This document shows, piece after piece, positions 3,069 to 15,439 of a DNA stretch of 28,757 nt (position 1 is its first letter; the number at the start of each line of letters is the position of its first letter). This stretch comes from a virus. The translations under genes were made by a program, and so were the position numbers. The DNA lies in IMG/VR virus record IMGVR_UViG_3300043449_001293, positions 1 to 28,757 of that record. The stretch is one strand, 5' to 3'. Under the pieces are notes generated by a model. The model did not search any database and was not told the DNA's origin. It worked only from the letters and a program-made list of their open reading frames with translations.

Positions 3069-4724
3069 TTACCTCTTGAATGAATTGATGACCTTGCTGA
3101 CCGGATTGTTGGCATCCAGGTCTACCGACGACAGGTCTTTTGCCATGCTGCCCATTTGCTGCATCGCCTCTTGCTGCTGTTGTGCCTGCATTGCCTGTGC
3201 GCGTTGCTGCCGGATCATAGCGACCTCTTTGCCGCCAATGATCAGCTGCGGATCGATGCCGAGTTTGTCGGAATACATATCTGCCCAGTGGTCAGCGTCG
3301 AATTTGTCCAGCACGTCGGGTTTGATGGTTGCCAGCTGACCGAGATTCATCACAAACCGGTCGACACCATTGACCGCAATCGCTTTTTGCGCCTGTGCTA
3401 GCATCGACACATACTCGACATTGAGATCGGCACCCGCCAATTCTTGTGGTGGTGGTGGAAGCATGTTTGCGCCCAGCAACCGCTCGAAGATGGTTTCCAC
3501 CAGTGGATCAAGCAATTCGTTATTCAGCCGCTCGACCACCGGGCCCAGCATCAACATCTTTTCCTCATGCCGCTCGGCCACTTCGGTGGCGGTCATGCGA
3601 GTGTCCTGCTGGGTGATCATCATGAACACGTCAGCAAAGAACGTGGAATTGATCCGCTGCCTGACATCCTGGATGTCCATCAGCAGATTACGCAGATCGA
3701 GATTGACCTCGAACGCGGTTTTGATGCCCTGGGTTCCGGTGGTAGCGTCGTAGTAATTGACGCCGCCAGGAAATATCTCAATCTCCCGATGCTTCATGCT
3801 CGACGGCACTTGCAACGGTGGATTAGCTTGATAGTCGATCGCTTGCGATTTGCGGAATTGCTGCTGCTGCAACTGCTTGACATCGCCCAGCGCTTCCATG
3901 CCAGGTGAATAGCCATAAACATCGCCACTGGACACCGCCCAACGTGGCGCGACACAGGGGAACGACTGAAATCCAGACTCGCGCAGCGGCTTGTCGTCTT
4001 TACAACTGGTCTCGAAATACACTGATCGCCACGGCATGTTTTTGCCGTCTTTGCGGGTCATATCGCGCAGCTTGCGTGGCTCGATCACATGCACGCACTC
4101 AATCCAGTGATCCAGCGTGCCTTTGTCGTAGAGATTGCGCACTGTCTGCGAGCATTGGTTATAGCCAAACTCGCGCACCAGCTCGTCAACGGTCTTTTTA
4201 AACTCGCGATACAACGTGGTGACATCGCCCTTGAAATCGGTAGCGATGCAGTACTCGCCGACGGTCATCGGGTGTAGATGGATCACATTGTCGTAATCCA
4301 TGCCGATAAACGCGGTTGCTGTGCCGAATGCGCCAAGCTCGTCATACATGCCATGCAAAACACGGTATGCGTTTGAGCGTGCCAGCACATCGGTGATCAT
4401 GTCGGTGACAGACTGCAACCACTGTTTGACCGCGTGATTTTTTAGCAAATCCTGATCAGTCAGCGACAGTCTGAACCATGGTCTGGATGGCGATGTCATG
4501 CCCGACATCATGCCCGCCGACAGCGTGCGCAGTGCGCGAGTGCCAGTCGAGTCATAGATGCGATTCATGCGCTTGTTGCCGCGCACGCTCTGATCGTCAC
4601 CGGCCAGATAACGCCCGTTATACGGCAGCAGGTGCTCTGATATATCCTGCCAATGGTCGAGCCAGGACGAGCGCTCTTGTTTCAGCGCGCTCCATCGCTT
4701 GCGAATTTGCTCTAACTCTCTCAC
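3069..4724 (-). CDS. Portal (head-to-tail connecting) protein
   Basis: This 551-residue protein matches the podovirus head-to-tail connector family. The N-terminus has the pattern LEQIRKRWSALKQERSSWLD followed by HLLPYNGRYL, RIYDSTGTRALRTLSAGMMSG and MTSPSRPWFRLS, all typical of that family. The middle carries QQQFRKSQAIDY and the DIQDVRQRINSTFFADVFMM helix, and the C-terminus is Gln-rich. Length is normal for the family. Twelve copies would form the vertex channel through which terminase packages DNA. The start overlaps the preceding small gene by ATGA. The identity implies a short-tailed virion. Confidence 0.92.
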   Translation of the reverse strand: MRELEQIRKRWSALKQERSSWLDHWQDISEHLLPYNGRYLAGDDQSVRGNKRMNRIYDSTGTRALRTLSAGMMSGMTSPSRPWFRLSLTDQDLLKNHAVKQWLQSVTDMITDVLARSNAYRVLHGMYDELGAFGTATAFIGMDYDNVIHLHPMTVGEYCIATDFKGDVTTLYREFKKTVDELVREFGYNQCSQTVRNLYDKGTLDHWIECVHVIEPRKLRDMTRKDGKNMPWRSVYFETSCKDDKPLRESGFQSFPCVAPRWAVSSGDVYGYSPGMEALGDVKQLQQQQFRKSQAIDYQANPPLQVPSSMKHREIEIFPGGVNYYDATTGTQGIKTAFEVNLDLRNLLMDIQDVRQRINSTFFADVFMMITQQDTRMTATEVAERHEEKMLMLGPVVERLNNELLDPLVETIFERLLGANMLPPPPQELAGADLNVEYVSMLAQAQKAIAVNGVDRFVMNLGQLATIKPDVLDKFDADHWADMYSDKLGIDPQLIIGGKEVAMIRQQRAQAMQAQQQQEAMQQMGSMAKDLSSVDLDANNPVSKVINSFKR

Positions 4725-4981
4725 TGGCCGAGCAGGGTTTTTTTGCTGAGATTGGGCGCTGTGGTATCACCAGCACCGCCAGACAACAGACTAGTCGATG
4801 GCGTCACCCCGCCCTGAGCGGTGTTGATGTCGCCGGTCTGTTTGCGCACAGCCGCAGCGTCAGGCACTTTTGCCAGTTGTGGAGGTGGTGGTGGAGGCGG
4901 AGGTGGCGGAGGTGATCCGCCGCCACAGAAAAACTGGATGGGCTCTAGGCCGAATCGGTAGGTTTTGATCATCGACTGCAT
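4721..4981 (-). CDS. Small phage protein with polyproline stretch
   Basis: An 86-residue protein with a run of eleven prolines at about residues 24-34, after an FFCGGGS segment, then a polar Ala/Thr/Ser tail. It overlaps the portal start by ATGA, so it is translated with it. An in-frame ATG at 4972 (MIKTYRFG) is an equally possible start. Such proline-rich small proteins occur just upstream of podovirus portal genes; the role is unknown. Long polyproline implies EF-P-dependent translation, which could tune the coupled portal gene (inference). Confidence 0.6.
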   Translation of the reverse strand: MQSMIKTYRFGLEPIQFFCGGGSPPPPPPPPPPPQLAKVPDAAAVRKQTGDINTAQGGVTPSTSLLSGGAGDTTAPNLSKKTLLGQ

Positions 4982-5023
4982 CTCATTAAATGGATGCGGC
5001 GATGGTATGTCACAGCCTGATAA

Positions 5024-5380
5024 TCATCCGCACTTGAAGCGGGTGCGGCATTTGACGATGTCGCGAATCGTTGATTTGCTGCAGCCAAATTTCTCGGCGG
5101 CTTGCAGATATGTCATGCGCTGCGGATTGTCAAAATCACACAGCTCGCGCACCAGGTCGACATCGGTATCAGACAACCGCGCCTTGGGATGATCCTCGCC
5201 GCTGATTTTTCCCTGGCCTCTTACTCGATGCAGCCAGTCAGGCCGATTGATCACTGACCAAGCAACAATCACCAGGTCAGCCGATTGCCTGCCGATGGTG
5301 ACGCTACCGTCTGACAGCAGCAACAAACAGTCATAGCGATCAGGTGGAGGGTTTGTGCGTGCGCGTAACCAATCGATCAA
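5024..5380 (-). CDS. Helix-turn-helix phage protein between terminase and portal genes
   Basis: A 118-residue protein coupled to terL by an ATGA overlap. The C-terminal half (from about residue 66) reads ARLSDTDVDLVRELCDFD, then YLQAAEKFGCSKSTIRDIVK, a homeodomain/resolvase-like helix-turn-helix of the 'starts with H-P-x-A-K-L' type common in phages. The N-terminal half has no recognised domain. It may bind DNA as a regulator or in packaging; its position next to terminase is the only functional hint. Confidence 0.65.
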   Translation of the reverse strand: MIDWLRARTNPPPDRYDCLLLLSDGSVTIGRQSADLVIVAWSVINRPDWLHRVRGQGKISGEDHPKARLSDTDVDLVRELCDFDNPQRMTYLQAAEKFGCSKSTIRDIVKCRTRFKCG

Positions 5381-12454: not shown

Positions 12455-12486
12455 TGTTATCACTCCAAACAACCTCTGCTTAAAGT

Positions 12487-12538
12487 AAGTGGCAACGCGG
12501 CAGAGTAATCGCGCTTTCGGGAGCTACCCTAGCCACTT
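12487..12538. repeat. Inverted repeat AAGTGGC / GCCACTT
   Basis: Perfect 7-bp arms at 12487-12493 and 12532-12538 enclose 38 nt that contain a further GCG...CGC pairing. It overlaps the end of the winged-helix gene and lies before the next start codon. It could fold in the leftward transcript as an attenuator or RNA processing site. No U-run follows on either strand, so it is not a standard terminator. Confidence 0.35.
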
Positions 12539-12810
12539 AAATCGTTAGGCCACCAAGTTAATGATTGTCTTTTCCCAATACGGCACTCCCTAGCCTCGCC
12601 ACGCTTCACGCTGACGATCTCAGGCAATCGCCTAGCGACCATAAAGCGGTCGATGCCAGCGGCGTCTGCAAGCTCTTTGCTAGTCAATCCTGGGAAATCT
12701 GCAACAGCTTTTGAAACGATCAATCTCTGATTGCTGGCAATTCCAGTTGATTCGACGTAATCGCCAGCCATGTGCGATGTGATTGGGTCTGTGTTTCGTG
12801 CGTTGATCAT
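12529..12810 (-). CDS. Winged-helix phage regulator
   Basis: A 93-residue protein with INARNTDPITSHMAGD, a recurrent N-terminal motif in phage winged-helix proteins, then LIVSKAVADFPGLTSKELAD and AGIDRFMVARRLPEI (helix-turn-helix) and a basic RIGKRQSLTWW end. The ATG at 12810 overlaps the preceding stop as TGATG. It probably binds DNA as an early regulator of the replication operon; the target is unknown. Confidence 0.7.
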   Translation of the reverse strand: MINARNTDPITSHMAGDYVESTGIASNQRLIVSKAVADFPGLTSKELADAAGIDRFMVARRLPEIVSVKRGEARECRIGKRQSLTWWPNDLSG

Positions 12811-13217: not shown

Positions 13218-13223
13218 GCCTAA

Positions 13224-13252
13224 ATTAAAGCACAGCTTGAGTTCTGATGCAA
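13224..13252 (-). promoter_or_regulatory. Candidate leftward early promoter for the cro operon
   Basis: On the minus strand, TTGCAT (13252-13247) and TTTAAT (13229-13224) are 17 nt apart, a good sigma-70 pair (each differs little from consensus). Transcription would begin close to 13217, the A of the cro ATG, so the message may be leaderless. The -10 lies in GTGCTTTAATT, which also occurs at the 14.1 kb promoter. Confidence 0.55.
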
Positions 13253-14105: not shown

Positions 14106-14134
14106 TTTACTTTTTAATAAAGCAGTGCTTTAAT
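14106..14134 (+). promoter_or_regulatory. Candidate rightward early promoter with perfect operator dyad
   Basis: TTTACT (14106-14111) and TTTAAT (14129-14134) are 17 nt apart. A perfect 15-bp dyad TAAAGCA-g-TGCTTTA (14118-14132) fills the end of the spacer and overlaps the -10, where a repressor would block polymerase. GTGCTTTAATT (14125-14135) is identical to the sequence around the cro promoter -10 on the other strand. The promoter lies just after tandem terminators and would start RNA near 14141. Confidence 0.6.
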
Positions 14135-14140
14135 TATTCC

Positions 14141-14560: not shown

Positions 14561-14610
14561 GGGCTGGGAGCGGCAAGGAATGGATACGCAAGGCAAAGCA
14601 AAGCAAGGCA
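14561..14610 (+). repeat. Pentanucleotide-periodic array upstream of the 14635 gene
   Basis: Ten 5-nt units read gggct, gggag, cggca, aggaa, tggat, acgca, aggca, aagca, aagca, aggca. The GGCA or AGGCA core repeats every 5 nt, which does not fit codon periodicity. A second array of the same kind lies after the gene, at 15261-15335. It ends about 25 nt before the start codon at 14635. Confidence 0.75.
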
Positions 14611-14634
14611 ACCACTTTTTATAGGAACACACCA

Positions 14635-15249
14635 ATGGCAAAAACAAACACCGCATCGGACACAAGGCTGGAAGTCGTCAAACGCCGCGTGAGATTGCGC
14701 GGACTGCAACCGATTATGTTCGACCGCTACGCGGGCGACAACAAAACACAACTGGCATGGCAAGACAAAATATACCTGAAACCCAATACAAACCGCTTGG
14801 TTTTGCCGACAGTAAACCTGTCGTCTTTCTTGAGCGCACACAACACCAACAGCGCCCCCAAACGACTGCGGGACAAACGCGCTTACAAGGACATTTGCAA
14901 CGCATGCCTGTCGTTTGTATCGATTGAAGCGACAGACGGCGGGCAAGACATCGCCTTTTTGCGCGACGACCAACCGATTGAAGTTGGCAGCTTTGGCGAC
15001 TCGCTGGATGCAACCAGCGGCATCTACCTGCATCGATCGGTCGCACGCTTAGAAAAAGGCATCCCAAACCCTAAAGAGCGCCCGGTGTTGCCGCTGCCGT
15101 GGGCGCTGGAGTTTGATTTAACCATTTATCCGAACAGGGAGATCAAGGAAGCCGAGATCAAAAACCTGTTTGAAGAAGGCGGCCTAGCTATCGGCCTTGG
15201 CACCTTTCGCGGCGTGTTCGGCAAGTTTGTCGTTGACGCCTGGGGATGA
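14635..15249 (+). CDS. Phage protein of unknown function flanked by pentanucleotide arrays
   Basis: A 204-residue soluble protein starting MAKTNTASDTRLEVVKRRVR, with GGA 9 nt upstream of the ATG. Notable segments are RLRGLQPIMFDRYAGD, NRLVLPTVNLSSFLSAHNTN, RDKRAYKDICNACLSF and a C-terminal glycine-rich stretch GLAIGLGTFRGVFGKFVVDA. The last loosely resembles the glycine-rich loop of RAMP-type RNA-binding proteins, but this is a weak resemblance and no family is claimed. It is the first protein gene of the rightward operon and lies exactly between two 5-nt periodic arrays, so a link to those sequences is the most interesting hypothesis. Confidence 0.8.
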   Translation: MAKTNTASDTRLEVVKRRVRLRGLQPIMFDRYAGDNKTQLAWQDKIYLKPNTNRLVLPTVNLSSFLSAHNTNSAPKRLRDKRAYKDICNACLSFVSIEATDGGQDIAFLRDDQPIEVGSFGDSLDATSGIYLHRSVARLEKGIPNPKERPVLPLPWALEFDLTIYPNREIKEAEIKNLFEEGGLAIGLGTFRGVFGKFVVDAWG

Positions 15250-15260
15250 TTTTTTGATTT

Positions 15261-15335
15261 AGCGGCTGGGCGGGGCATGGCATGGCGCGGCAAGGCTCGG
15301 CTCGGCTAGGACCGGCAAGGCAAAGCAAGGCAAGG
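15261..15335 (+). repeat. Pentanucleotide-periodic array downstream of the 14635 gene
   Basis: Fifteen consecutive 5-nt units, all but one ending in GG: agcgg, ctggg, cgggg, catgg, catgg, cgcgg, caagg, ctcgg, ctcgg, ctagg, accgg, caagg, caaag, caagg, caagg. The first three bases vary, but GG recurs every 5 nt. A T-run follows and the tRNA gene starts 12 nt later. It is G-rich on the plus strand. It is not a CRISPR array: units are too short and have no spacers. Confidence 0.8.
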
Positions 15336-15347
15336 TTTTTATATTTC

Positions 15348-15418
15348 GCGGGATTGGCTCAACGGTTGAGCACCAGCCTTCCAAGCTGGCTACAGGGGTT
15401 CGACTCCCCTATCCCGCT
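15348..15418 (+). tRNA. tRNA-Gly (anticodon TCC)
   Basis: A full cloverleaf folds: acceptor GCGGGAT / ATCCCGC, D stem GCTC / GAGC, anticodon stem CCAGC / GCTGG with loop CTTCCAA (anticodon TCC), T stem AGGGG / CCCCT with TTCGACT loop, and T as discriminator. The 3' CCA is not encoded (CAA follows). It sits between the pentanucleotide array and the next gene, so it probably matures from the rightward operon transcript. It reads GGA and GGG glycine codons. Confidence 0.95.
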
Positions 15419-15439
15419 CAAACAACAGGAGATAAAAAT

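Follow-up and report, generated by a model that had tools for sequence, protein, structure and literature searches.

The stretch of viral DNA analysed here (IMG/VR record IMGVR_UViG_3300043449_001293, 28,757 nt, hereafter the window) carries a gene bounded on both sides by arrays in which GG recurs every 5 nt, raising the question of whether protein and arrays belong together and, if so, what they might do. A 2026 preprint (PMC13142463) describes, under the name VIPR, a phage-encoded RAMP protein accompanied by vrRNAs of 9–16 GGY/NN units with a conserved tail, which follows the repeat tract and is invariable and often structured. The free NN dinucleotides, which SUSP1 Vipr uses as a guide, pair with DNA with one base skipped between pairs, and the complex represses transcription, with targets found mostly in competing phages; an accessory vap gene is typical of these systems (PMC13142463). 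As judged from its sequence, the window locus is a new, divergent member of the already described VIPR systems, because a homologous protein of predicted RAMP fold and its associated, co-oriented arrays match those of the preprint (Table 1).

Table 1. Features of the window referred to in the text
Feature	Position	Strand	Description
int-alpA small RNA (RF02996)	12473-12539	-	40.7 bits (gathering score 35.8); between leftward early genes
Inverted repeat	13223-13238 and 14120-14135		AATTAAAGCACAGCTT / AAGCAGTGCTTTAATT, 94% complementary; one half close to each end of the CI-like repressor gene; candidate operators
vrRNA1 array (putative)	14562..14611	+	10 units, in vipr leader; variable dinucleotides TG GC AA AT TA AA AA AA AA AA
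vipr	14635..15249	+	204-aa protein of predicted RAMP fold, putative C-terminal G-loop GGLAIGLGTFRGVFGKF
vrRNA2 array (putative)	15264..15338	+	14 units and closing GGTTT
vrRNA2 variable dinucleotides	15264..15338	+	TG GG AT AT GC AA TC TC TA CC AA AA AA AA
3′ flank	15336..15347	+	TTTTTATATTTC, between last GG of vrRNA2 and tRNA
tRNA-Gly(TCC)	15348..15419	+	9 nt past closing GGTTT of vrRNA2

By homology and modelling, the gene encodes a Vipr protein with a predicted RAMP fold. Both the window protein (E-value 2.9e-6) and the Vipr of Escherichia phage SUSP1 (E-value 1.4e-96) belong to phrog_4652, and comparison of the window family with the SUSP1 clade using hhalign returns a probability of 99.2% (E-value 7e-20), the two clades being about 14% identical in the profile alignment. 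When PDB sequences were searched with the window family profile, the sole chain at E ≤ 1 was 36pp, 'SUSP1 Vipr protein' (E-value 2.3e-7); a match to this same entry confirmed L139:28477-29061, first inferred from locus layout, as the SUSP1 vipr gene. An AlphaFold (AF2) model of the window protein (pLDDT 90.9, pTM 0.86) was compared with the PDB using Foldseek, and all 50 matches listed are CRISPR effector entries, mostly of type III Csm, the best E-value being 1.7e-5 with a TM of about 0.5 to Csm3/Cas7-type RAMPs. The original prediction had pointed to a glycine-rich C-terminal stretch and had proposed that the structure be checked against RAMP-type RNA-binding folds: the predicted fold is indeed that of a RAMP, and the stretch contains G187, G189, R192 and G196, which are invariant in the family profile and are read here as the RAMP G-loop. 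Fold and G-loop are likewise those of the class 1 CRISPR Cas7/Csm3 backbone, from which the window differs in having a single small RAMP protein and a putative guide that is gapped rather than continuous. Class 1 CRISPR-Cas membership was rejected, with no CRISPR repeat–spacer array recovered from the window by a tandem-repeat scan (as distinct from a dedicated CRISPR finder), and neither the several cas genes of that class nor any single further one seen among the neighbours scanned with Pfam.

With regard to the arrays themselves, both lie on the same strand as vipr and are built from units of GG, followed by C or A, and two free bases. Adjacent to vipr there are 10 and 14 such period-5 units, of a consensus related to that of VIPR, and by homology the two arrays would be the guide RNAs (vrRNAs) of the Vipr protein. 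The arrays proposed in the original prediction are thus real, although its boundaries were displaced by 1–3 bases. Of the 15 consecutive pentamers of array 2, 14 possess GG, and the run score of 12.5 for this array compares with a maximum of 5.0 among 200 Markov-1 random sequences, each of window length. Array 1 has a full GG in seven of its ten units, the other three being CGC, AGC and AGC, and its score of 5 equals that of the best random run, which is borderline when taken alone; despite this, the array is convincing because of its place, strand and homologues. It may nonetheless be weak or decayed, given the three units that lack GG and the five AA units. The only tail element shared by the two window arrays is TTTTTATA, which lies 3′ of both.

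Homologues of the window protein, with 39–89% identity, were found on 16 IMG/VR contigs, and in 15 of these 16 loci period-5 GG arrays occur beside the gene, often with several per locus. The single array-less example, L016, has a vipr frame that is broken into two fragments. Across the 58 arrays of the relatives, which mostly comprise 10–19 units, entropy is 0.33–0.49 bits in the GG columns, 0.96 at the third base (C 79%, A 13%, T 7%) and 1.88–1.97 at the last two, such that GG is nearly fixed and the final pair nearly free. In the closest relative, L001, whose protein is 89% identical, the array dinucleotides differ from those of the window, and across the clade AA is the commonest pair in units near the array 3′ end. 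The association was also examined in reverse. At least 120 viral contigs match the array pattern, and a Vipr-like protein is encoded in 86 of the 120 listed for this pattern alone versus 1 of 319 background contigs, which had been fetched for guide–target patterns; the two models were built with some 21 or 22 of these 86, making the independent count roughly 65 of 99. Of the 225 arrays on the contigs listed for the array pattern, 219 share the strand of vipr. The original prediction had been staked on homologues carrying arrays, on the pentamers being related to this gene and on period and GG being kept whilst other bases vary, and the comparisons came out in its favour on each; the proposed cassette of one protein plus arrays is therefore borne out by the homologue loci and the reverse test.

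Outside of this clade, tblastn of the window protein against INPHARED phages and PLSDB plasmids gave no match at an E-value of 1e-3. One weak match, to Phenylobacterium in a scan of genome contigs, was not confirmed by the profile and was discarded; amongst 398 genomes of the phylum of that contig, nine have distant C-terminal matches only (best E-value 8.7e-10). No neighbouring gene was found to be conserved across the homologue loci, whether a vap accessory gene or any other. Two individual loci display further features. L004 harbours a second, divergent vipr-like gene (4676-5326, E-value 7e-8) near the arrays of the same contig, and L013 (2762-2936) has a 35-unit array with the recurring unit block TG GC GG GA AT CC TG, suggesting array growth by internal duplication.

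Could the arrays be something other than guides? That they are decayed simple-sequence repeats, or an artefact of base composition beside an unrelated phage gene, might be argued from array 1, whose score on its own does not exceed the random maximum; however, array 2 scores far above chance (12.5 versus 5.0), arrays recur in 15 of 16 homologues, and both the reverse test (86/120 versus 1/319 contigs) and the co-orientation (219/225), among the matches listed, speak for a link with the gene, so that the probability of this explanation is close to nil. A second candidate is suggested by TRAP, the trp RNA-binding attenuation protein, which binds (G/U)AG triplets spaced by 2–3 nt and whose RNA, in common with the window arrays, presents a triplet about every 5 nt. 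The arrays would then be multivalent sites for autoregulation of vipr mRNA, with free bases that carry no information, and the period of 5 with its fixed triplet and two free bases, the placement of array 1 in the leader of vipr itself and the generic look of its 3′-terminal run of five AA units would all agree with this. TRAP, however, has another fold, and its sites are fixed and regulatory rather than programmable. The predicted Vipr fold is RAMP/Cas7, the arrays differ in number and length between loci, with many located downstream of the gene or present several times per locus, and in SUSP1 Vipr the free bases serve as the guide (PMC13142463); autoregulation of this kind is accordingly regarded as improbable.

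The locus is, with high confidence, a divergent VIPR system, in which Vipr-coated array RNA would pair with DNA by the skip rule and repress at the target site. It shares with SUSP1 VIPR (PMC13142463; KT454805.2) a phage-borne setting, a RAMP-fold Vipr of ~200 aa with a C-terminal G-loop, GG arrays of period 5 on both sides of the gene, phrog_4652 membership and homology to the 36pp sequence. The window departs from SUSP1 in its GGC/GGA rather than GGY units, its AA-rich 3′ units, the apparent absence of vap1, and in having no visible structured tail but a tRNA directly after vrRNA2. Mechanistically, Vipr would coat the array RNA, probably with one subunit for each GG(C/A)NN unit of 5 nt. The GG-containing part would be gripped by the G-loop and thumb of the protein, and the two free bases left exposed. 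The exposed dinucleotides would jointly pair with a DNA target in the pattern NNxNNxNN..., where the complex would repress transcription; this target would most likely belong to a competing phage, a prophage or a satellite. What was computed in this analysis is that the arrays are present, that they accompany vipr and share its orientation, that the protein has a predicted RAMP fold and that it is homologous to SUSP1 Vipr. That the RNA is expressed and bound, that pairing skips single bases and that repression follows is taken from the preprint on SUSP1 and P. fulva (PMC13142463) and extended to the window locus by analogy. Where the original prediction had the protein or its RNA act on the arrays, the RNA–protein complex would, by analogy, act on the DNA of other phages instead.

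The variable bases of the arrays are most likely the message, i.e. the guide sequence, a role that the original prediction had not anticipated. Under the one-base-skip rule, vrRNA2 decodes to TGxGGxATxATxGCxAAxTCxTCxTAxCC, its last four AA units probably being part of a generic 3′ end, as AA is so common at this position across the clade. A skip-rule scan of IMG/VR with 14- and 16-base exact cores of vrRNA2 gave chance-level matches only among those listed; the best, in L161, agrees at 19/20 bases, where by our own estimate (from a mean of ~12 per 16-base core) ~3 such matches are expected by chance. A target search with one L001 vrRNA produced nothing convincing, and vrRNA1, the guide part of which is short and AA-rich, was compared with the collected loci only. 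In an all-against-all guide search among these loci no skip length stands out, and free-dinucleotide composition, a weak test, does not favour codon positions 1–2 (bootstrap 0.65 versus positions 2–3).

The tRNA-Gly was confirmed as real, but its proposed place in the cassette was not upheld: in the 16 homologue loci, the 200 nt that follow each array are free of tRNA genes, and the close array–tRNA arrangement is particular to the window among the loci examined. Apart from this tRNA, no hairpin follows either window array, the short flank behind vrRNA2 included. In the relatives, tails recur within several loci and form strong hairpins in some (L003, with z of -5.7 to -7.8, L007 and L011); the folding z lies below -2 in 13 of 57 tails, most being without a strong signal. 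The L004 tails after 2478, 4650 and 6006 have a common outer stem in which bases seem changed on both sides (TTATTCTG/CAGAGTAA, TTATTCCA/TGGAGTAA and TTATTTCA/TGGAATAA, paired by eye), and these changes look like covariation. It is conceivable, if rather doubtful, that the tRNA-Gly replaces the structured vrRNA tail, with an RNase P cut at 15347/15348 setting the 3′ end of the vrRNA2 guide; if true, this would be a tRNA-processed counterpart of ribozyme-spaced VIPR arrays.

Among the classes of RNA-guided DNA recognition VIPR is very recent, and it is a proposed ancestor of CRISPR RAMPs. A clade far from SUSP1 that displays the same array logic, and an array–gene link discernible from sequence alone, helps to show the breadth of this class, and provides new material for testing, in the form of small proteins of about 204 aa and a guide scaffold of the GGC/GGA kind.
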